Virus record (IMG/VR): IMGVR_UViG_3300046323_000140
Location: 1 to 30,469 of that record
Length of the DNA stretch: 30,469 nt
DNA from: a virus
Reading direction: 5' to 3' (one strand)
Shown here: positions 559 to 26,230 of the stretch, in pieces
Layout: every line of letters starts with the position of its first letter
Numbering within the stretch: position 1 is the first letter of the stretch
The notes under the pieces: model-generated
What the model was told of the DNA's origin: nothing
Databases searched by the model: none
The model's input: only the letters and a program-made list of their open reading frames with translations
Position numbers and translations under genes: made by a program

Positions 559-974
559 TCTAACATCGCCTCGACTGCAAGCCAAATATGGGGGGTCATG
601 AATATAATACTTGCAAAAACGGCAATGACGAATTCCCCACCAGTAAACGCGGCGGAATAGCTTAGTGCGGCGAATTGTAAGGCGTTAATCAATGATCCTG
701 TGATAATTGTCTTGTGACGGATTGGCTTTATTAGGCCCAGCCATGTAATTGCGGATCCTGCCATCATGATTGCGGCCCACATTTCGGCAGGGAATTGTAG
801 GGCGAATGTGCCGTATATTTCTGCGCTGAAACCTTGATCGTATGTCTTGGCGTTGATCCAGAATAGAGAACCGACGATCAACAGGCCGATTTGAAACATC
901 ATAAATACGGGGCGATAGCGTTGGATTGAATGTCGCTTGTCTGATAGACGCCAATCGATTTCTGTATCGGTCAT
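555..974 (-). CDS. four-helix membrane protein, holin candidate
   Basis: A 139-residue protein. After about 20 polar residues it has four hydrophobic stretches, near residues 24-42, 63-82, 90-110 and 113-135, with short loops. ATG at 974 is chosen because it overlaps the previous stop as ATGA. A longer in-frame start nine codons upstream would run far into the previous gene. No enzyme motif is seen. Its place directly before the coiled-coil membrane protein and the endolysin makes it a candidate holin, although four transmembrane helices are more than most class I holins have. I do not recognise the family with confidence. Confidence 0.72.
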   Translation of the reverse strand: MTDTEIDWRLSDKRHSIQRYRPVFMMFQIGLLIVGSLFWINAKTYDQGFSAEIYGTFALQFPAEMWAAIMMAGSAITWLGLIKPIRHKTIITGSLINALQFAALSYSAAFTGGEFVIAVFASIIFMTPHIWLAVEAMLD

Positions 975-1294
975 TTTAGAGCGCCCATGTAGATCATCCA
1001 TGCGCCGCCTGCGATTGCGATAAATGGCAAGAATGGATTGAATGAAAAGCCAAATACGCCAATGGCCCAGAATAATAGATCGCCCCAGTAATCAGACTTT
1101 AGCCCGGCCATGCGCTTGAGTTGATAGGCTTCCCAAGCGATGATGCCCAGCCCGACAAGGATTGTTGCGGGGATTAGTGGCATGAATAGGGACGCAATGA
1201 CCATGAAAGCGCCACCTAGCACGGCATGGCCTATTTGATTGAGGCCAGCGACGTATGGGCGGTCTTTGAAGTCATCGGGGCTTAGTAGCGTCAT
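971..1294 (-). CDS. small three-helix membrane protein
   Basis: A 107-residue protein starting MTLLSPDDFKDR, with hydrophobic stretches near residues 17-50 (possibly two helices with a His-Ala-Val-Leu-Gly entry) and 68-105. ATG at 1294 overlaps the upstream stop as ATGA and is preferred over a start 37 codons earlier. The translation of that longer stretch is polar and unlike the rest. Gene order (tail fibre region, this gene, a second membrane protein, a coiled-coil membrane protein, the lysin) suggests a lysis or superinfection role. The family is not recognised. It could be the holin instead of its downstream neighbour. Confidence 0.7.
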   Translation of the reverse strand: MTLLSPDDFKDRPYVAGLNQIGHAVLGGAFMVIASLFMPLIPATILVGLGIIAWEAYQLKRMAGLKSDYWGDLLFWAIGVFGFSFNPFLPFIAIAGGAWMIYMGALK

Positions 1295-1605
1295 GTTGCC
1301 ATTGCCGCTATGAATAGATCGTCGATTTGCTTGGGGGTAAATGATGCCGACCCCAGCGCATCGATAAATGGGGAGTTGCGAATAATGGTTGTTGCGTATT
1401 CCCACAGGATTTTAGCTTCTGGGTCACTGTCTGCGATTGCTTGCACGGTTGCGAGTAGCCCCGCGCGATGTAGTGTCAGCCGCATTTGCGCTGGTGTGCA
1501 TTGTAGGGTTGTCCTCCACGCTATGATATCAAATGGGGGGTCAGTGTATTCCCGCGTTGTGACTTCGCCCGTTGTGGCGTTGATGATGATTTCCGTTCCC
1601 ATCAT
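1291..1605 (-). CDS. small phage tail-region protein (XkdW / fibre-assembly-like)
   Basis: A 104-residue soluble protein. The N-terminus MMGTEIIINATTGEVTTREY resembles the short beta N-termini of phage tail-end and fibre-assembly proteins. The C-terminal half is a helical region containing QMRLTLHRAGLL, a run ending WEYATTIIR and a final TPKQIDDLF. This layout recurs in small proteins between tail tip and lysis genes of many siphoviruses. ATG at 1605 is used because it overlaps the stop of the previous gene (ATGA). A second ATG follows immediately. The exact role is unknown. Confidence 0.68.
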   Translation of the reverse strand: MMGTEIIINATTGEVTTREYTDPPFDIIAWRTTLQCTPAQMRLTLHRAGLLATVQAIADSDPEAKILWEYATTIIRNSPFIDALGSASFTPKQIDDLFIAAMAT

Positions 1606-2123
1606 TGCACCCCATATACGCGGATTGATCCGGCGTCGAAAGCGTTGGCGCATGAAACGCTTACGGAAGTCGATGCAGTGGACAGTGAGGTTCTAATAGC
1701 TTGCCCAGAGTATGTAGCATTTCCGGGGAATGTCGTAACATTTCCGGCGCTAGAATATCCAATGCCGTTGGACAAATCAATCATAACATGCCCGTAAAAA
1801 GTATCTCCACTACCGACAGTGGCAATTACCGTAGCGCCTGCAAAAAGTATATTAGGGTTTCCAGCGCCAGAGTATGAAACGCCGTTAAACGTAGCCCTCA
1901 AAAACCGATAAGGCGTCAACACCAGCCCCGACAGCGTAACAGTCGTGCCGCTTGTGGTTGTCATGGTTCCAAGTAGCCTATGGCCGATCTGATACGCGGC
2001 AGGCACAGTCGTGTCACTTTCCGCCACAGCCAGCAGATTATCCCGCAACTGATACATAAGCTGCGAGGTTAGCGGCGCATCCGGGTCTAATTGCGTGTCA
2101 AGGATTGGAACATAAGTCGCCAT
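1602..2123 (-). CDS. putative tail-tip appendage or short fibre protein
   Basis: A 173-residue protein rich in Gly, Ser, Thr and Val with alternating beta-type sequence from about residue 50 onward, as in phage appendage or carbohydrate-binding proteins. The first 35 residues contain QLMYQLRDNLLAV, a helix commonly seen at the N-terminus of small tail proteins of this type. Its start codon overlaps the stop of the tail-tip gene by one base (TAATG). Position after the tip protein and before the lysis genes fits a receptor-binding or structural appendage. No catalytic motif is seen. Confidence 0.65.
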   Translation of the reverse strand: MATYVPILDTQLDPDAPLTSQLMYQLRDNLLAVAESDTTVPAAYQIGHRLLGTMTTTSGTTVTLSGLVLTPYRFLRATFNGVSYSGAGNPNILFAGATVIATVGSGDTFYGHVMIDLSNGIGYSSAGNVTTFPGNATYSGQAIRTSLSTASTSVSVSCANAFDAGSIRVYGVQ

Positions 2124-3886
2124 TAGATAAACCTATACGCGCCGAGAAAGTCACCAAATACTAAGCTAGGTCCAACCATGTAAGCACCTCTGTTTTTTTG
2201 CGCCGCGCTACTTGCGGAATATGTAGGGCGCGCGTTGTCTGTAATATACCCGTAACGCTGATTAAACGCAAATGACTGCGCTGTCAGTTTAACGCTATGG
2301 CCGTTTATAACTTCCTCGCGCTTAATAATCTGCATAAGCTGCGACCGACCGCCGCCGTCGTCATCCGTTATGACCGTTGACGTGGCGCTAATAACCTCAG
2401 TGAGTTCGGTGTCGTCCTCAATATCAACAGTTATTTCATATTGCACGGGCTGCTTGTTAAATCTATTCAATAACCGCTTAGACATGATTTTTACCAACGC
2501 GTCATCGCCGTGATTTAACCAGCGGCAATGAATTGTCTTTATCTTAGTATCGCCGTAACTGTTTGGAGACTTAGCGTTGACATCAATGAGCTTTGAGCCC
2601 GCATAGTAATTCTTTTCATCCGTTGTTGATTGCGTTGGATTGATAACGCGGGTGTAAAATACAACCTCGGTCAATCGATCCTCGTCGCGGTCCTCTTGCG
2701 ATATTGATAAGATATTGTTGCGGTCTGAAATTGATTTCACAACGTCGGTATCTGGTGGCCTGTTGATCTTTAGCCCAATCTTTTGGGTGACATCATCCCA
2801 CCAGATACTAATACCCAACACCGCCAATTCACCGATGAGCCTGCTAACCCCTTCCGGCTTTAGAATGTCGGTTGTGACGGTCAATGTGGGTGCCCATCGT
2901 GACACCTCAGCCGCCCATACCGCCGTTGATATAAACGCCGGATTGATCCCCGCATAGTTGATTAGCAGATCCGCAATCGCAATATCAATGCGAACTCTGC
3001 GCGGGGAATACGACTGCTGGAAAGCGTCATTGATACCGTGCGCCGCCGCCACAGTGCCGTTGACGCCGCGTTCCGTTAGCGTGACCACATCGCCCGACCG
3101 AGTGAACGCTACCAACTCGGAACCTATAGTGCCAAACCCGCTAGCCGCATATTCCGAACCGATGCCCGCCGGATTAAGAGTGAACGCCTGCCCGACCGCA
3201 GCAGTTACCGCCGATAGCAATATCCCTTGGCTTGTCTTTGGCGCGACAGCTTTATCGTTATCAGCCAAGAACAAAATATCCTTGCCTTTAATCTCGACGC
3301 TACCATCATCACCCGGACCGATGATTTCGCTGATGACAAAATGCCGCGTGGATAAAATAGTGACGACGCCGTTTAGAATATAGCCCGACACCCTACGCAT
3401 AGGACGGCCCGCATAGTTAGGGTTGCGCGCCTTAAACTTGGTCCAGAAAGTGCCTTTATCGACTGGCTTATATCCTACACCGCCCAGCACCGCCGCCCCT
3501 GTAACGCGCTCGTTTGCGTATTTATCCATAAAACGATCATGATACGGATGGTCAGTGAACCTAGCAGAAACCGTGCCACGTGTTCCTAGCGCATCCATCC
3601 GATCATCGCTGCCAGCTATGTTGACCGTAGCACTCGCGCCCGACACTGACACCAGATAAGGAAACACCGTGCCGCTCTTGGGATAGCTAGGCGTGGGCGT
3701 GAAAAACTTATAGGTGATGAATGTTTTGTTAAAATTAGGGATATCTTTACACGTCGCGAAGGTGTTGAAACATTTGCGCGTAACGACGCCACCTAAAGCC
3801 GCCGTGCATGGCGCAACACCAAACGTCCTGCTGCAATAATCAATGTCTATTTCTATCTGATCAAACGGCTCGATATTACCCGGCAT
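2123..3886 (-). CDS. tail tip / baseplate hub protein with N-terminal four-cysteine motif
   Basis: A 587-residue protein at the place where siphoviruses encode the tail tip hub. The first 50 residues hold four cysteines (Cys18, Cys27, Cys39, Cys46) around FGVAPC and RKCFNTFATC. Lambda minor tail protein gpL binds an iron-sulfur cluster through cysteines, and many tail-tip proteins have a comparable Cys-rich part, so metal or Fe-S binding here is a reasonable inference. The rest is long mixed beta sequence without enzyme motifs and includes a region near residues 315-390 rich in Trp. The C-terminus (GPSLVFGDFLGAYRFI) probably packs in the tip. The start overlaps the previous gene by 11 bases. 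Which hub homologue it is remains uncertain. Confidence 0.72.
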   Translation of the reverse strand: MPGNIEPFDQIEIDIDYCSRTFGVAPCTAALGGVVTRKCFNTFATCKDIPNFNKTFITYKFFTPTPSYPKSGTVFPYLVSVSGASATVNIAGSDDRMDALGTRGTVSARFTDHPYHDRFMDKYANERVTGAAVLGGVGYKPVDKGTFWTKFKARNPNYAGRPMRRVSGYILNGVVTILSTRHFVISEIIGPGDDGSVEIKGKDILFLADNDKAVAPKTSQGILLSAVTAAVGQAFTLNPAGIGSEYAASGFGTIGSELVAFTRSGDVVTLTERGVNGTVAAAHGINDAFQQSYSPRRVRIDIAIADLLINYAGINPAFISTAVWAAEVSRWAPTLTVTTDILKPEGVSRLIGELAVLGISIWWDDVTQKIGLKINRPPDTDVVKSISDRNNILSISQEDRDEDRLTEVVFYTRVINPTQSTTDEKNYYAGSKLIDVNAKSPNSYGDTKIKTIHCRWLNHGDDALVKIMSKRLLNRFNKQPVQYEITVDIEDDTELTEVISATSTVITDDDGGGRSQLMQIIKREEVINGHSVKLTAQSFAFNQRYGYITDNARPTYSASSAAQKNRGAYMVGPSLVFGDFLGAYRFI

Positions 3887-4676
3887 AAGCTACAATACCC
3901 ATGGATACTTCGGACAATTCACCGCCTTCAACGTATGTCGGGTTAATGTCGCCTGCGCTTTCTGGACGCCAACAGAACCCCATATCCTTGGGCCATTCTT
4001 GGGGTGATCCGCAGTAGAAAAACGCCCCGCCGCTGTTGTAATGGTCGCGAAATGCCACGAAGTCTGCACCATCTACAATAGAAGTTGCGACCAAGCCGAA
4101 GTTGACACTTGTTTCAATGCCCATTCGTTTAACGCGGTTTTTGCGCTTTTGACCTGATACTGTTTGCGAGTTCATCAGCGTTGTTTTTCTGGCGTTATTA
4201 ATTGCGGTATGTCCCGACAATGGCGCGTTTGGCATAGCAAGTTTTTTACCAAGATACGCAATTCCGACAGTGACCGGAACAGCGCCACCGCTAAAGGATA
4301 TCAACCACCATCTAGCGGTTGTATTAGGAAACGTGATGAATAAACCATCGTTATCGGATGCCACTACAATCGCAATATTTGTAAACGTCACGTTGTCATT
4401 GCTGTATTGCACTTGAACAGTTTTACCAGTCAAGTTTGCTGTCGCGGTTAATGCCGCACAATTACACATAACCGATGATGACATATCAACACCGATCACC
4501 GAGGGAAGGACGCTAGGTTGCCAAAAGTCCCAAGTTTCCTCGTCCGCCACGTTTTCAACAGGGCCAACCAATGGCGACGAATTGGCATAAATAGCCCCGC
4601 GCGCAAGGATATTATCCCACAGGATATTGACGCCAGTTACGTCTGTTGATCCACTCATGATTGCAACTTGCGTCAT
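3876..4676 (-). CDS. minor tail protein (distal tail / tip component)
   Basis: A 266-residue protein between tape measure and tip hub, the place of the distal tail or first tip protein. The N-terminal half (about residues 15-150) looks like a beta-sandwich: VQVQYSNDNVTFTNI reads like a discoidin or carbohydrate-binding fold strand pattern, followed by ARWWLISFSGG. The C-terminal half (about 155-266) contains a basic segment and an Asp-Phe-Val-Ala-Phe element, and ends in beta strands. The start overlaps the tape-measure stop as ATGA. The function is assigned mainly from gene order. Confidence 0.7.
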   Translation of the reverse strand: MTQVAIMSGSTDVTGVNILWDNILARGAIYANSSPLVGPVENVADEETWDFWQPSVLPSVIGVDMSSSVMCNCAALTATANLTGKTVQVQYSNDNVTFTNIAIVVASDNDGLFITFPNTTARWWLISFSGGAVPVTVGIAYLGKKLAMPNAPLSGHTAINNARKTTLMNSQTVSGQKRKNRVKRMGIETSVNFGLVATSIVDGADFVAFRDHYNSGGAFFYCGSPQEWPKDMGFCWRPESAGDINPTYVEGGELSEVSMGIVAYAG

Positions 4677-6622
4677 TGTTTAATCAACACCCTACCATTG
4701 CCGCTTGCCTCATACATTTGCGACGTTACGCTTTTGGCGATTGCCACCATAAACGGATCGCCTTGGAAATTCACAACAGTTGTGCGGATAGGCTCTACAG
4801 GTGCCTGCGCCGCAGCCCCCGGCCCGCTTGCACCACCCCCGCCGCCCGATGCACTGCCACCACTCTTGATCGCCTTAACAAACCCCATGCCCGTTGCGAT
4901 GACTTTGGCAACTGCCGAGAATTTCTGCCAAGGTGTTGCCGTGGGTCGCGCTAATTCGTCCGCAGCGCCTTTATACGTGCTGATCAATGCCGATGCCGCA
5001 GCGAATGATCGTTGCGCGGTTAGCAGTCCAGAATATCCACCGCCCGCCAATGAATTAAGATTACCGAACAAGCTGGCTGTGCTGTCGAGGCTGAATTGAT
5101 CGCTTGCATCTTTAATCCCGCGCAATTTGTCATGATACTGGCGCTCAAGATCAAGCATTGCGTCTTTGTGACCAGCCTCGCCCAGCAGTTCCATAGCGCG
5201 ACGGTCGTTTAGAATGACCTCATTGTCAGCATACCATTTTTCAACGGTTTCGCGCTCCGTCATTAGCGACGACATCAACCGATCAAGGTTAGCTTGGTAA
5301 GGGTCGGACCCGCCACCAGAAGCGCCGGAGGAGCTTGTAGAGCCTGTGCCACTGACGCCTGACAGTGTGCCCATCAAGTTAGGCATAGCGCCCATAGCGC
5401 CACGCTGTGCAGCGTCAGGTCCACTTTCGCCCCGGTTTTGTATCTTGCCGTATTCAAGCGAACCTGCGCTTGTTGCCGATCTGATTTGATCTGTAATGTT
5501 TTTAGCGGCCATAAGCCTACCGATCAACATGTTTGTTTCGCTTGTTGCCGACGCCATCCAGCCAGAACCCGGCGCTGCGTTACTTAGATCAATGGCTGCG
5601 TTTTCGGCTTTTCGTGTGGATTGTTCGACTTCCATTATTAATGCATTTGCTTTGACTAGGGAATTAAACATTGCCGACTGTTCACCAGTCATCTTGCTAA
5701 ATCCGTTAGTCGCAATCGATAGCTGGTCCGTTAGGTTTTGAATGACAAACTTTTGTTTTTCTAAGCTATCTAGTTCTCCGATGCCTTCAATTACCCCATA
5801 AAGGATTTGGGCATCTTTCCATGAAGTTTCAAAGACGCGGCCTATCTCGCCATAAGAGGTATTCAGCATGCCATCGCCAAGCTCTGACCCGATAGACGCC
5901 AACGTGGCTTGCAGCTTTCGAGCCGACTCATCTAGTGCAAGTATTTTCTGATTTTCGATTAATTCAAGCACTTGGGCGTTTAGTGATCCGTATTTCTCTT
6001 TTAGCTTGGCAAGACCATCATCTGAATACATGTTAGTTACATCATTCAAATTATTGATGGCGGTTTCTAATTCGTCCAAGTTTTCCTTGAACGTCTTTAC
6101 ACCTGCCCCCGCACCAGTGAAATACTGATACAAAGCAGCACCGCCAGCAATTACGCCAATGGTCACTAGGTTCAACGGATTAAGCAACTGCATAAACGCG
6201 CCCTTAATCAGCGAACCGACCATGCCAACCTTGCCGCCCATCTGCCCCCATACTTGGTTTAGCTGGGTGCCTTGCTGCATGGCTAACATCATAGGCGATT
6301 GACCCGATGCCATCATCATAAAGATATCGTTTAACTGCGCAAACACGTTGGCCGTGTGCATGCCTGATATTTTCATTTCATTGCCAAAAGCCGCAGTTGG
6401 CGCGCGGGCATTTCTGATAGCATTGGAATAATTCACCACAGGCACGTGCGCGCCTTGCCAAGACTTCATGTTAGATTGTGACGCGGCAATACTAGCGGCG
6501 CTAAACCGACCAATAGCGCCCTCTGTCTTCATAGCTGTTTCGCCAAGAACCTTTAACGCCCGGTCAGTTTCCACAACTCCGCGCATTTCAGCAGCAACAC
6601 CTAATAGAGCAACGTCAATCAT
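4673..6622 (-). CDS. tail tape measure protein
   Basis: A 649-residue protein with tape-measure features: largely helical, an Ala/Met-rich early region (about residues 88-130, including FAQLNDIFMMMASGQSP and AMQQGTQLNQVWGQMGG, typical of prophage tail length tape measure proteins), one hydrophobic helix at about 145-170, a long coiled-coil middle, and a flexible Gly/Ser/Pro-rich stretch near 615-635. It directly follows the frameshifted chaperone pair, as in most siphoviruses. If the usual value of about 0.15 nm of tail per residue holds, the tail would be close to 100 nm, a short siphovirus tail. The start overlaps the upstream chaperone frame by eight bases. Confidence 0.9.
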   Translation of the reverse strand: MIDVALLGVAAEMRGVVETDRALKVLGETAMKTEGAIGRFSAASIAASQSNMKSWQGAHVPVVNYSNAIRNARAPTAAFGNEMKISGMHTANVFAQLNDIFMMMASGQSPMMLAMQQGTQLNQVWGQMGGKVGMVGSLIKGAFMQLLNPLNLVTIGVIAGGAALYQYFTGAGAGVKTFKENLDELETAINNLNDVTNMYSDDGLAKLKEKYGSLNAQVLELIENQKILALDESARKLQATLASIGSELGDGMLNTSYGEIGRVFETSWKDAQILYGVIEGIGELDSLEKQKFVIQNLTDQLSIATNGFSKMTGEQSAMFNSLVKANALIMEVEQSTRKAENAAIDLSNAAPGSGWMASATSETNMLIGRLMAAKNITDQIRSATSAGSLEYGKIQNRGESGPDAAQRGAMGAMPNLMGTLSGVSGTGSTSSSGASGGGSDPYQANLDRLMSSLMTERETVEKWYADNEVILNDRRAMELLGEAGHKDAMLDLERQYHDKLRGIKDASDQFSLDSTASLFGNLNSLAGGGYSGLLTAQRSFAAASALISTYKGAADELARPTATPWQKFSAVAKVIATGMGFVKAIKSGGSASGGGGGASGPGAAAQAPVEPIRTTVVNFQGDPFMVAIAKSVTSQMYEASGNGRVLIKQ

Positions 6623-20199: not shown

Positions 20200-21918
20200 T
20201 TAACTCCATTCCCAGCAGACCGACACATCGCCCGTCAATTGCAATTCTGTTTCGGCATAAATCGTAAATCCGACCCCTGCCACGATATTCCCGGCTGATA
20301 ATCCTACACGTGTAGGGAATATAAGCCCGTGTTCCTCGGCATTATGGTGAGCCGTTGCTACTGCCATAAACCATACCCTAATTCTTGACGAAGCGCCAAT
20401 TGCCGCTTGTCCAGTTACTGTTGCCGTCGATGTGGCCGATCCTGTGCCAGATCCGAAGTTAATCGTTGCCGTCCCACCCACAGCGCCGCCACCGCCCCCA
20501 GCAGGTGCGGACCACGTGCCATCCGCGCGCAGGAAGTTGGTCGTGCCGCCACCCGACGCCGGGGCTAGTCCAGCGTCCGCAGTTGTGACGATAGGCAACG
20601 TGGTTCCCGTGCCAGTCGATGACGCCAGCGCCCGCGTGGCCGCAGTATATGCAATGTTCGTTCCGACGTTGACCTGTGCGCCTGTCGCGATACCGTCCAG
20701 CTTAGTCTTATCCGCGCCAGTCATGAAACCAGCAGCGCCAGCAGCAACGGCTACAGCGTGTAATGTGCCACCAGCGCGCGACCCGTGCGACGTATCGTCA
20801 AACCGCGCCGCAGGTAGGATGCCCGACGATAGATCAGCCGCAGACCCCGACGTTGCCACAGATGCAAGCCCTGTGATCGTTGCCGCCGATTGTGTGCCAG
20901 TATGGTTGGCACGTGCCCGATCTGCAGCGTGGAAGTGCAGAGTTGTGTCAACTCCATCATCAAGCGTATTCAGGTTCGCCACTGTCATTGTAACATCGGT
21001 GACGGCCGCGAGCGTGTGAGTGTGCGCTGTGGGTGCATCGCCGATATACATGATGTTGCCATCAGTCACCGCCGCGTCAAACTGCGCCTTGGTGCCCGTA
21101 ATCCCGGCAATGGTTGTTTGATCGCCCGTGTTAGTGCCGCTAGATGTGCCGGAGAATGTGCCCGATTGCGTGGCAAGAGTGCCCAAGCCAAGCACAGTTC
21201 GACCTTGCGCGGGTGTTAGAGCTTCTGGAACGCCCGTGCCAGCCGTAGCTCGTCCTATCAGCGTGGCAGTGGCGATGCTTGCCATATCGGCAAGCGTAAC
21301 AGCGCCGGGGTCAATCGTCCAGACCGTTCCGCCGCCTGACACTGTAATATCGCCCTTGTCGCCGTCCGCAACACCGCTGCCCGATACTGTCTGCCAAGAC
21401 ACGTCTTGATCGGCATTGCTGGCCTTAGCCAATACCTGCCCAGTCGATCCACCAGCAGGCAATGCCGCGCCACCCGTGCTACTACCACCGCCGCCTGTAA
21501 ACCCGTTGCGGCCATCCTTGCCCGGCTTCCCGTCTTCACCCTTAACATGGCCCGCATTGATTAGCCGCGAGTTGGTTAGTTCAACGTACAAGTCACCATC
21601 ATCAGGATCAACATAAACGTCACGGATGGATACGGCAGGCGCGGGCGTGTTGCCGTCATTGCCTTTGGGGCCGATCTGACCAGCCTCGCCTTGTGGTCCA
21701 GTATCGCCTTTATCGCCCTTAGAGCCGGTAACACCTTGCGCGCCTTGTGGACCATCGCCGCCACGTTCGCCACGATCACCTTTGGGGCCTTGTGGGCCTT
21801 CCTTGCCCGTAGGTCCGATTAAACCTTGATCACCTTTTACCGCGCCGTTTTCCGTAACGCGCAATTCAACTTCGCGCTTGGCAACGGCAATAATGGCAGC
21901 GAGTTCAATTGTATTCAT
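20200..21918 (-). CDS. collagen-like tail or head fibre protein
   Basis: A 572-residue protein. After a 28-residue helical start there is a run of Gly-X-Y repeats (about residues 29-91, with many GPQGPKGDRGERG-type triplets) and a second short run (about 129-145, GEDGKPGKDGRNG). The rest has Gly/Ser/Thr-rich fibre repeats, TTLHFHAAD and GTQSAATITGL elements, GFMTGADKTKLDGIATGA and FLRADGTW, all common in phage tail fibres. Collagen repeats in phage fibres form a triple-helical rod and thus imply a trimer. ATGA overlap couples it to the portal gene upstream. It probably forms the shaft of a receptor-binding or head fibre. Confidence 0.82.
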   Translation of the reverse strand: MNTIELAAIIAVAKREVELRVTENGAVKGDQGLIGPTGKEGPQGPKGDRGERGGDGPQGAQGVTGSKGDKGDTGPQGEAGQIGPKGNDGNTPAPAVSIRDVYVDPDDGDLYVELTNSRLINAGHVKGEDGKPGKDGRNGFTGGGGSSTGGAALPAGGSTGQVLAKASNADQDVSWQTVSGSGVADGDKGDITVSGGGTVWTIDPGAVTLADMASIATATLIGRATAGTGVPEALTPAQGRTVLGLGTLATQSGTFSGTSSGTNTGDQTTIAGITGTKAQFDAAVTDGNIMYIGDAPTAHTHTLAAVTDVTMTVANLNTLDDGVDTTLHFHAADRARANHTGTQSAATITGLASVATSGSAADLSSGILPAARFDDTSHGSRAGGTLHAVAVAAGAAGFMTGADKTKLDGIATGAQVNVGTNIAYTAATRALASSTGTGTTLPIVTTADAGLAPASGGGTTNFLRADGTWSAPAGGGGGAVGGTATINFGSGTGSATSTATVTGQAAIGASSRIRVWFMAVATAHHNAEEHGLIFPTRVGLSAGNIVAGVGFTIYAETELQLTGDVSVCWEWS

Positions 21919-24037: not shown

Positions 24038-26230
24038 TCACGATCCTAGTGCCGCCCAGTTGATCCCGACATGCTTCATAATCGGGTTTAGAGCATACCT
24101 AAGCGCGTCACAGTTATGAACTATGACGCCCTCTGCAATAAATTCATTCTCGCCGTCTATCAAAAGGTTATAAACCTTACTTGCATACCCATGATCTGTA
24201 ACGGTTAGAACATGCCCTACTACATGTTTTTGTTTTTGAGTATTTGTTAGTTTCGAATGGATTTTCGCAAACAGGGCATTCAATCCAAACATTATCAATG
24301 CCGGATGCGCGACGGCTTGCCGACTTACACGCATTGGAGCAAAACAAGTCAAGGTTGCCAAGTTTTTTTGGCATGAATTTATTTTTGCAGTTATTACATT
24401 CTTTTTCAACTGGCACAAATGATTGATATGCCATTGCACCGACCCGCCTATGCACTTCGATGCCTTCTGGAGTTGAGTGCCAAGCCTTTGCCAGATGGTT
24501 GATTGATGCAAGGTGTTTAATTTGGTTATCGTATCTTTTGCCTTGCATTGGGTGGCGCGAAAAATGTTCTTTTCGAGTAAGGCACTCAAGGTTTTCAATT
24601 GAGTTGTTGCTTGTGTTTTCATCGACATGATGAATGTCAAAACCTTTTGGAATTGTGCCGTTAACACTTTCCCAAACGGCTCGGTGTAGATACTCGACAC
24701 CGCCTTGGATACTGCGCTGGAAATAAACTCTATCTGACCTGCGTTTTGATTGCGGCCAACGGTTATATTTCTTTCCGTTCCAGATTGTTGTTTCAGCCAT
24801 GATTTACTCCCTGTTACTTCATCACCGTAACACAGAGTGTCTGCTCTTGTAAAGGATGTATTTCGCAAGACGGGGTGATCTGGGGTGCATACCAAATCGC
24901 CAATAGTTGTGGACACTTTAACGACTGGCTTGTTATGTCCTGTTACATGCGCCGCAAGCACCTTGCGCCATCCTTTGCGCGTCATTGCCATATCGCCAAC
25001 TACTACGCTCTCAATCGGTATTTGTCCGCGTTTAGTTAAAACCCTTTGACCTTCCGAAATGCAATAATGGTTGTTTGCATCGACGGGCTTAGGTTTAATC
25101 GCGCCTGATAGTTTGTCAATTTCCCATGAATAAAGCCTAAACTCCCTCGCCGTTTGAACGCAACGGGGATGGATATACACGCGCTTGAATGATCGGATAA
25201 ACTGAATGCCGTCCTCGACGCTGCCCTTACCCTTAACGCAACCGATAGCCCGGTGAAAGCCCTTGCGCTGAATATGCGATATCATGCCAGGTTGCGCGCT
25301 ATCCCATCGACTGACATGCTTGTCATATTCTGGAATACTGGCCGATACGCGACTGACAATATCGTCAATCTCAATGCGAGTTCCGCCCGCCTCATAGTCA
25401 ATATATAGGCAGTTGTCTTTGACCCATGCCCGGACTGCGGCAGTAGGATCTTGCGAGTATCCAAAGTCACCGCCTAGATATGGACCTTGCCATCCGGGTC
25501 CGTCAACTTCAAACTCTTTAATCTCATACTTGCCCGCCATGATTTGGGCCTCTGTGAGCGTTAGGAACTGGCCTTCCCATATGTGATCGTAAGTGTCCGG
25601 GCGAAACTCCAGATCGGCCTTGCGCTCATCTTCTAGGCCTTGCGGAAACCAAGGATTGTCGGAGTAGTTACATTCGACAATGACCATGCGCTTTGGATCG
25701 TATGAAACGCGGAAACGCTTATGGGTTGCGCTTTCCTCGCTTTCCGGGTTCCACGTTAGCCATATTTCGGAATTCGGTTCGCGCATTACTGTAGCGATCA
25801 GTTTGCGCCATGCCAGCTCTGATACGTTTTCCGCCTCATCAATCCATGTTAGCAGGACTTTGGCTTTTGACTTAAGGCTGTCGAGGTTATGACGTAAGCC
25901 GACAAATAGAAACCATATATTACCAGACTTGGTGCGGATGTACTCTTTGCCGATTGAGAAGTGAGAGGCAAGCCAATCATCTTCCTGAATGACTGATTTC
26001 AATTCCTCCATTGAACTGTCTGCTAGTGACCCCATGAATTCACGACCGCATAGGATTGCGCCACGTAGTCCCATAGTTTCAAACACTAGGGCTCGTACGG
26101 CCACCATGCGGGCGAAGGTGCGGGTCTTGGCACTACCACGGCCACCATATGCGCCACGATATGCCACAGCACCAATGGCCGGGGCGAATACGGGCGCTAG
26201 GGCTTGCGGGATTTGCACGTTAACTTCCAT
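24038..26230 (-). CDS. terminase large subunit, intein-containing precursor
   Basis: A 730-residue precursor giving a 413-residue terminase after removal of the intein. N-extein (1-389): Walker A GGRGSAKT at 29-36, Walker B VLLTWIDEAE at 125-134 (Asp131, Glu132), coupling motif WLTWNPES at 157-164, nuclease aspartates Asp255 in GGDFGYSQ and Asp310 in RWDSAQP. C-extein (707-730): CDALRYALNPIM with the third nuclease aspartate. It packages DNA with ATP and cuts concatemers. ATG at 26230 is chosen, because upstream in-frame codons have only non-ATG starts and cross a promoter and terminator. There is no ribosome binding site, and the promoter lies so close that the mRNA may be leaderless. Without splicing the nuclease site would be broken. 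Confidence 0.92.
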   Translation of the reverse strand: MEVNVQIPQALAPVFAPAIGAVAYRGAYGGRGSAKTRTFARMVAVRALVFETMGLRGAILCGREFMGSLADSSMEELKSVIQEDDWLASHFSIGKEYIRTKSGNIWFLFVGLRHNLDSLKSKAKVLLTWIDEAENVSELAWRKLIATVMREPNSEIWLTWNPESEESATHKRFRVSYDPKRMVIVECNYSDNPWFPQGLEDERKADLEFRPDTYDHIWEGQFLTLTEAQIMAGKYEIKEFEVDGPGWQGPYLGGDFGYSQDPTAAVRAWVKDNCLYIDYEAGGTRIEIDDIVSRVSASIPEYDKHVSRWDSAQPGMISHIQRKGFHRAIGCVKGKGSVEDGIQFIRSFKRVYIHPRCVQTAREFRLYSWEIDKLSGAIKPKPVDANNHYCISEGQRVLTKRGQIPIESVVVGDMAMTRKGWRKVLAAHVTGHNKPVVKVSTTIGDLVCTPDHPVLRNTSFTRADTLCYGDEVTGSKSWLKQQSGTERNITVGRNQNAGQIEFISSAVSKAVSSIYTEPFGKVLTAQFQKVLTFIMSMKTQATTQLKTLSALLEKNIFRATQCKAKDTITKLNTLHQSTIWQRLGTQLQKASKCIGGSVQWHINHLCQLKKNVITAKINSCQKNLATLTCFAPMRVSRQAVAHPALIMFGLNALFAKIHSKLTNTQKQKHVVGHVLTVTDHGYASKVYNLLIDGENEFIAEGVIVHNCDALRYALNPIMKHVGINWAALGS
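24113..25063 (-). mobile_element. 317-residue intein in the large terminase
   Basis: Splicing elements are intact: Cys1 in CISEGQRVLTKRG (block A), VVVGDMAMTRKGWRKV, the TPDH of block B (Thr60 to His63), then the C-terminal KVYNLLIDGENEFIAEGVIV block and final His316-Asn317, followed by extein Cys. The N-terminal splicing half is about residues 1-86 and the C-terminal half about 296-317. The intervening 210 residues encode no endonuclease in this frame. They are Lys/Gln/Thr-rich with about six acidic residues against about twenty lysines, as expected from the overprinted frame of another gene. The insertion site is between NNHY and CDALRY, a conserved nuclease motif, as is usual for inteins. 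Confidence 0.9.
24177..24800 (-). CDS. free-standing HNH homing endonuclease overprinted on the intein
   Basis: A 207-residue protein in a -1 relative frame, wholly within the intein. Residues about 36-82 are an HNH_3-type core: YLHRAVWE (His39), GFDIHHVDEN (His57, His58), then NNSIENLECLT. The C-terminal third holds two zinc-finger-like clusters, Cys135-X2-Cys138 with Cys154-X3-Cys158, and Cys175-X2-Cys178 with Cys193-X3-Cys197, probably for DNA recognition. ATG at 24800 has AGGGAG about six bases upstream. It starts just after the N-terminal splicing half and its stop comes right before the C-terminal block F, so it fills the usual endonuclease slot without sharing the frame. It presumably cuts intein-free terminase genes. 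Expression from the terminase message by internal initiation is inferred. Confidence 0.88.
   Translation of the reverse strand: MAETTIWNGKKYNRWPQSKRRSDRVYFQRSIQGGVEYLHRAVWESVNGTIPKGFDIHHVDENTSNNSIENLECLTRKEHFSRHPMQGKRYDNQIKHLASINHLAKAWHSTPEGIEVHRRVGAMAYQSFVPVEKECNNCKNKFMPKKLGNLDLFCSNACKSASRRASGIDNVWIECPVCENPFETNKYSKTKTCSRACSNRYRSWVCK

Follow-up and report, generated by a model that had tools for sequence, protein, structure and literature searches.

A terminase intein and an HNH gene share the same DNA

The window analysed here, the whole 30,469-nucleotide stretch of IMG/VR virus record IMGVR_UViG_3300046323_000140, carries on its minus strand a large terminase subunit (TerL) gene that contains an intein, and within the DNA of this intein lies a second gene, for an HNH endonuclease, in another reading frame. 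The TerL open reading frame (ORF) runs from 26347 to 24038; the likely start is the ATG at 26228–26230, with the ORF extending open to 26347. The N-extein (25064–26230) contains the Terminase_3 ATPase and RNase-H-like nuclease domains, with Pfam matches to Terminase_3 (PF04466, E 1.5e-23) and Terminase_3C (PF17288, E 2.2e-15), and the C-extein (24038–24112), as read from the ORF, consists of CDALRYALNPIMKHVGINWAALGS and a stop codon. The intein between them comprises 317 amino acids, from Cys1 (25063) to the terminal HN317 (24113), as delimited by its splicing residues, the alignment of its relatives and an AlphaFold model, and these are exactly the limits proposed when the DNA was interpreted from its letters alone (hereafter the sequence-only reading). 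It lies within the TerL nuclease motif, with NNHY before it and CDALRYAL after it. This motif has an established function in TerL, and its residues flank the intein on either side, so that TerL should need splicing in this phage.

All of the residues of a class 1 Hint-type intein are present, namely the nucleophile Cys1, T60 and H63 of the TPDH block, H316-N317, and Cys+1; C1, T60, H63 and N317 were invariant across 33 aligned intein relatives, among which V297 and Y298 of the C-terminal half were also conserved. The N-terminal splicing half consists of residues 1–87 (24803–25063) and the C-terminal half of residues 279–317 (VYNL...GVIVHN, 24113–24229), with a modelled strand from residue 280. 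AlphaFold predicted a Hint fold for residues 1–88 and 279–317, with a predicted local distance difference test (pLDDT) score mostly above 93 (about 94–96 for residues 1–80 and 93–96 for the C-terminal half), and the model aligned over both halves with the splicing domain of the Mtu RecA intein (TMt 0.81). Although the match to the Pfam Intein_splicing family fell below its curated cut-off (E 2.3e-7, 31.2 bits vs 35.8), we accepted the insert as an intein because of the invariant splicing residues and the Hint-fold model. The linker between the halves, at about residues 94–275 (24239–24784), is encoded by the overprinted DNA and was predicted to be disordered (pLDDT < 50).

The HNH gene (24177–24800, minus strand) encodes a complete protein of 207 amino acids in the -1 frame relative to the intein, so that the intein frame is HNH +1. 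The sequence-only reading had described such a gene, with two zinc-finger-like clusters and an AGGGAG ribosome binding site of its own, and profile searches agreed with it: the protein matched PF13392 (HNH_3) at E 1.1e-18 and phrog_15471 (HNH) at E 8.2e-37. The core residues are H39, H57-H58, N66 and H79, and two CxxC...CxxxC clusters are formed by C135, C138, C154 and C158 and by C175, C178, C193 and C197. The core His and Asn residues and all eight zinc-cluster Cys were invariant among 33 HNH relatives, and with this motif and these clusters the protein can be regarded as a putative HNH homing endonuclease. Its AlphaFold model had a mean pLDDT of 94.3; a Foldseek search of the model against the PDB returned no match below E 0.001, leaving the overall zinc-cluster arrangement without a clear solved match. 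The Shine-Dalgarno-like AGGGAG (24807–24812) lies 6 bases 5' of the HNH ATG, and the intervening bases include a TAA in the HNH frame directly upstream of the ATG (24804–24806). Because this TAA closes the HNH frame, a frameshift from the intein N-terminal half of the window cannot reach the HNH sequence.

As had been proposed, the HNH gene spans intein codons 88 to about 296. The further claim that it fills exactly the usual endonuclease slot did not hold, however, as its last 16 or so codons extend into the first strand of the C-terminal splicing half, and the gene thus appears in the model to be slightly larger than that slot. A separate contig of 6625 bp was base-for-base identical (100%) to the window locus, and a relative with 92% nucleotide identity over the locus region had the same intein and HNH layout. 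As the contig is a separate one and the layout is common to relatives, an assembly error is excluded.

The overprinted arrangement is widespread

We scanned IMG/VR and GTDB contigs with the HNH alignment and classified the loci by hidden Markov models of both intein halves and of HNH. This survey yielded 97 overprinted loci, 21 whose two intein halves did not share a single frame (for the most part true split inteins), 6 in which one half was detected, and 27 without an intein. In a second survey, which used a narrow alignment of the intein N-terminal half alone and no HNH, 57 of 77 newly fetched loci were overprinted and none had the HNH in frame. The total of 154 overprinted loci corresponds to 127 clusters at 90% HNH identity. 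In every one of these 154 loci the phase was identical, with the intein frame at HNH +1 and the HNH frame at -1, and neither survey found an in-frame version of this HNH family within an intein. An in-frame homologue and a lone assembly error were the two outcomes that the sequence-only reading had named as fatal to it; all of the loci examined were free of the former, and the identical second contig argues against the latter. The central proposal, that the intein is intact and is translated straight across an endonuclease gene overprinted on it, thereby gained strong support, and the arrangement is a widespread, little-noticed kind of mobile element rather than a singular oddity.

The splicing residues were retained throughout the family: Cys1 was present in all 97 overprinted loci checked, the first C-extein residue was C in 89 and S in 8, and the TxxH motif was found in 91 of 97. 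Wherever any family matched the exteins, it was a TerL family, with both Terminase_3 and Terminase_6 types represented, and the hosts were TerL genes of phages and of archaeal viruses or proviruses, isolates included. A tblastn search with the HNH protein matched annotated terminases of Acinetobacter phage Highwayman, Tetrasphaera phage TJE1 and a Rhodobacteraceae phage, as well as one unannotated gut phage, and in all four the TerL-intein frame was open with the HNH in the -1 frame. No HNH gene is annotated at the overprinted locus in the records of Highwayman, TJE1, the Rhodobacteraceae phage or a Halobacterium plasmid; gene-calling programs report a single frame and overlook the second, which leaves endonucleases hidden in annotated terminases. 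The Halobacterium record (locus L206; NZ_CP070376.1, Halobacterium sp. GSL-19 plasmid pGSL19_54.9, a complete plasmid record of 55 kb) carries the overprinted HNH intein in TerL at 963–3275, followed by a portal gene, and its terminase is annotated merely as 'Hint domain-containing protein'. Because it encodes TerL and a portal protein, this haloarchaeal 'plasmid' is probably a virus genome or phage-plasmid.

Selection keeps the intein frame free of stop codons

The sequence-only reading had estimated a chance of 5 in 100,000 that the intein frame would remain open through the HNH gene. This estimate was too strict for the phase concerned: the probability of finding no stop in the window was 0.089 when synonymous codons were shuffled within the gene and 0.004 when codon order was shuffled, and none of 200 trials was open (mean, 6.4 stops) when the gene was recoded with the codon usage of the host gene. 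The openness of the window copy alone is therefore suggestive. At the family level, we examined 82 overprinted representatives with less than 70% HNH identity, 74 of which had enough host gene to derive TerL codon usage. Not one stop occurred in the +1 frame across the 82, whereas 314 were expected for the 74 recoded with the codon usage of their host TerL, and the log10 probabilities of zero stops in the recoded representatives summed to about -146.

HNH relatives outside intact inteins served as controls. Free-standing HNH genes contained 149 stops in the +1 frame compared with 148 expected, and HNH genes of split inteins contained 94 compared with 104 expected, with a median of 6–7 stops per gene among these relatives. 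A further signature was seen at ATG codons followed by A, which in the HNH frame create an unavoidable stop in the intein frame: such a context was found at none of 145 ATG codons in overprinted HNH genes, versus 22 of 68 in free-standing ones. It could be argued that the open frame is a by-product of HNH composition in a phase naturally poor in stops, and the window-alone probabilities of 0.004–0.09 would fit this idea, as would the stop counts of free-standing genes, where the +1 phase has about a third as many stops as the +2 phase (149 vs 443). Since codon arithmetic gives far fewer stops in +1 than in the other phase, only the +1 phase is readily kept open. Composition therefore accounts for the choice of phase, but as the cause of openness it was refuted at the family level by the contrast between zero stops in embedded genes against some 314 expected and the 6–7 stops typical of free-standing and split relatives; we regard this explanation as highly improbable. 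The family-level result is decisive that selection keeps the intein frame free of stops.

The two frames are under different constraints

The sequence-only reading had suggested comparing synonymous and non-synonymous change in both frames across homologues, and this comparison set the two frames clearly apart. Between close pairs, the ratio of non-synonymous to synonymous substitution rates (dN/dS) was 0.11–0.45 in the HNH frame (0.17 for the window versus locus L003) and 0.84–1.73 in the linker read in the intein frame. Variation was greatest at third HNH codon positions, and the HNH protein is under purifying selection. The intein N-terminal half had dN/dS values of 0.13–0.32 in measurable pairs. 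When residue-level constraint in the linker frame was sought in distant pairs, identity was barely above that of synonymously shuffled HNH genes, as it was in the controls. With dN/dS near 1 and identity near the shuffled expectation, the linker is a by-product that is mainly required to stay open. The locus is therefore a clean example of overprinting: selection maintains the protein encoded by one frame, but in the other it maintains little more than the absence of stops. Overprinted TerL inteins appear tolerant of long arbitrary inserts.

These values also bear on whether the HNH frame might be dead or accidental, with the intein alone functional. Mini-inteins without HNH exist, and the HNH is thus dispensable for the intein, but the low HNH dN/dS, the invariant catalytic His and Asn and eight Cys residues, and a model pLDDT of 94 make such a frame scarcely credible.

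Mobility, decay and split relatives

Synonymous divergence (dS) was lower in the intein N-terminal half than in the flanking TerL sequence in all four close pairs with finite values, the N-terminal half being a part of the intein that does not overlap HNH: 0.175 vs 0.42 for window/L003, 0.13 vs 0.66 for L080/L083, 0.38 vs 0.79 for L024/L026, and 0.42 vs 1.01 for L098/L103. A lower intein dS is what one expects if the element has moved more recently than the gene that hosts it, and it is an indirect sign that the HNH may cleave insertion-free alleles.

Five mini-inteins of 118–136 residues were found, together with four inteins of 145–157 residues that contain out-of-frame HNH remnants. These show decay of the overprinted element, with the intein frame retained. 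One mini-intein at the insertion site of the window (L210) retains a GGGAG site, the ATG, and the first codons, for MAETIEWNG, of the lost HNH gene. Other members of the same intein lineage (L228–L230) are split, and 14 split and 11 free-standing genes formed one cluster of an unrooted tree built from the HNH sequences (Shimodaira-Hasegawa-like approximate likelihood ratio test, SH-aLRT, 96), the remaining genes being mostly overprinted. The suggestion that overprinting is a step toward a split intein is thus plausible, as the split and free-standing cluster lies next to overprinted genes, although in an unrooted tree the direction can only be deduced indirectly: a change from overprinted to split is likelier than the reverse, because a single stop suffices for the former and about six stop losses would be needed for the latter. 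The scarred mini-inteins and the split relatives fit a life cycle of this element. With overprinted, split, scarred and mini forms all present today in a single lineage, it becomes possible to test how split inteins arose.

Several individual loci are of interest in this respect. In Brochothrix phage BL3 (L009; HM144386.1) there are TerL intein halves with a broken intein frame and, at 2223–2414, a short HNH remnant that matches 50 residues of the window HNH at 62% identity; gp3 probably holds the intein C-terminal half, and the locus looks like a split derivative after loss of the HNH. A Candidatus Methanimicrococcus contig (L127) has a single stop at 3488–3490 between an open N-half frame and the C-half, and in a Prevotellaceae contig (L141) the intein N-half is in another frame (at about 2948); these near-overprinted loci are possibly recent splits or sequencing errors. 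Free-standing HNH relatives adjoin terminase genes in L005, L011, L012, L013 and L207, lying upstream of TerS in Acinetobacter phage BP10 and between TerL and the portal gene in others, which suggests that this terminase-associated HNH family exists both with and without an intein.

How the two frames are read

At HNH starts, Shine-Dalgarno matches of at least 4 bases were present in 41 of the 82 representatives, compared with 17.6 expected, and in 65 of 82 the HNH frame was closed by a stop no more than 60 nt before the point where the HNH profile begins. Candidate starts of the intein C-terminal half behaved differently in the two classes of loci: those with a Shine-Dalgarno site were not enriched in overprinted loci (35 vs 39.7 expected), but they were in split loci (12 of 17 vs 6.9 expected). 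That the enrichment is confined to split loci supports the view that overprinted loci are read through and splice in cis.

We therefore considered whether the overprinted element could itself work as a split intein, in which translation of the N-half would end or stall, the HNH would be produced, and the C-half would begin at a start of its own, with the open linker being incidental. The HNH family does include true split relatives, and L228–L230 are split within the same intein lineage. However, the intein frame contained no stop in any of the 154 loci, whereas split relatives carry as many stops as expected, and the C-half starts lacked the enrichment just described, so that we consider this explanation very unlikely. 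We judge it about equally improbable that the intein N-half and the HNH are joined by programmed ribosomal frameshifting, which would make the endonuclease an alternative domain of the intein: the HNH is always in the -1 frame relative to the intein, and its frame is open upstream in a minority of loci, but the TAA just before the ATG of the window, the upstream stops of most representatives, and the enrichment of Shine-Dalgarno sites at HNH starts all argue against it. Phage group I introns frequently encode HNH homing enzymes, and the nearest solved profile relative of the HNH protein is I-HmuI, as might be expected if the insert were an RNA intron spliced from the mRNA before translation. 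Yet the sequences flanking the HNH encode both Hint halves in a single open frame with all splicing residues, and an Rfam scan of the window for an intron gave no match, making an intron the least probable of these alternatives.

We propose instead, with a probability of about 85%, that the element is a cis-splicing intein that would be read through an overprinted homing endonuclease gene, the HNH being translated from an internal start, and that the two move as one unit. A mobile intein in the TerL nuclease motif would thus give rise to a single transcript that is read in two ways. Ribosomes entering from the TerL start would pass through the whole intein, including some 200 linker residues that mainly need to lack a stop codon, and the two Hint halves would then fold together with the disordered linker between them, so that TerL is spliced in cis. 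A second set of ribosomes, initiating within the intein, would translate the -1 frame into the HNH homing endonuclease as a free protein. This enzyme may cut intein-less TerL alleles, whereupon repair would copy intein and HNH as one unit. TerL splicing, HNH synthesis, the target site and homing are what we infer from the conservation and layout of the loci. Some observations count against this model. The overprinted class was defined by openness, a selection bias that is lessened, though not abolished, by the controls and the intein-based scan; the loci are mostly metagenomic, with few named records (Highwayman, TJE1, the Rhodobacteraceae phage and the Halobacterium plasmid). The Shine-Dalgarno signal is present in only about half of the loci, 17 of the 82 representatives have no stop within 60 nt upstream, so that a frameshift fusion is possible in some of them, and the dS comparison rests on four pairs.

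A broader interpretation, which we advance tentatively and at slightly less than even odds, is that overprinting is the standard, old state of a major TerL intein lineage in tailed viruses of bacteria and archaea. In such a lineage the HNH would be tied to the intein only by the shared absence of stops, and loss of this openness would have given rise to split inteins and to free-standing HNH genes beside terminases.

Comparison with known systems

By its sequence and predicted fold the element is an intein, and it probably works like a homing-endonuclease intein. It resembles canonical inteins with an in-frame LAGLIDADG or HNH endonuclease in its Hint halves, its use of the endonuclease slot, its TerL insertion sites, its presumed homing and its decay to mini-inteins, but the overprinted HNH is encoded in another frame, as a protein of its own. 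In 2009, Dassa et al. reportedly described split inteins whose halves are separated by a free-standing endonuclease gene ('Fractured genes'). The likeness lies in the free endonuclease gene between IntN and IntC, and our surveys detected related HNH genes at loci of this type; in contrast, overprinted loci keep both halves in one unbroken frame through the endonuclease gene, and the window likewise has a single open frame in place of two polypeptides. I-HmuI (PDB 1U3E) shares the HNH core, with a weak profile match (E 0.0034) covering 87 residues, but is encoded by a group I intron.

The sequence-only reading had known of no described case of this kind. An out-of-frame HNH does have a precedent outside inteins: in Mycobacterium phage ShiLan, an HNH with zinc fingers is overprinted in the stop-free frame of a methylase, and is thought to home and to stay in the protein (PMC11855218). 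An announcement reports an out-of-frame HNH in another methylase (PMC12613952), and these two related papers, neither with an intein, were the only ones in which our literature search found an HNH concealed within a host gene that itself stays open in another frame. We re-examined the ShiLan locus (L286; JN020143.1), where the HNH frame lies at 4510–5100 within the methylase at 2786–5668, and found the same phase as in TerL inteins (host at HNH +1). ShiLan differs, however, in that its host gene is a methylase rather than TerL and has no splicing domain, whereas the TerL locus has complete Hint halves. Moreover, the ShiLan HNH has a GTG start without a Shine-Dalgarno site, and is only distantly similar to the TerL-intein HNH, with the order zinc finger-HNH-zinc finger; this difference in domain order suggests that the same phase was reached separately. 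PMC11855218 also cites a 2025 preprint on actinophage inteins with a 'non-canonical architecture' for overlapping frames, which, as cited there, may describe related cases; among the annotated phages with the overprinted layout found here, only TJE1 infects an actinobacterium. As each of these known types fails on a tested feature, the element is neither a canonical in-frame endonuclease intein, nor a split intein, nor a ShiLan-type insert. It represents a third way of tying a homing endonuclease to an intein, besides in-frame fusion and split genes, and one that offers a large natural sample with built-in controls.

Other observations

A second Hint-like start, CFTAETELAPI...TPKHPVLTQYGW, was seen at about 5200–5507 in Escherichia phage Ec1-ASingh (L010; PQ561395.1), in a gene downstream of a portal-like gene, and is truncated by the end of the examined stretch. 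In the window, the region 20200–21918 on the minus strand encodes a 572-residue protein with collagen-like Gly-X-Y repeats, which is probably a tail or fibre protein.
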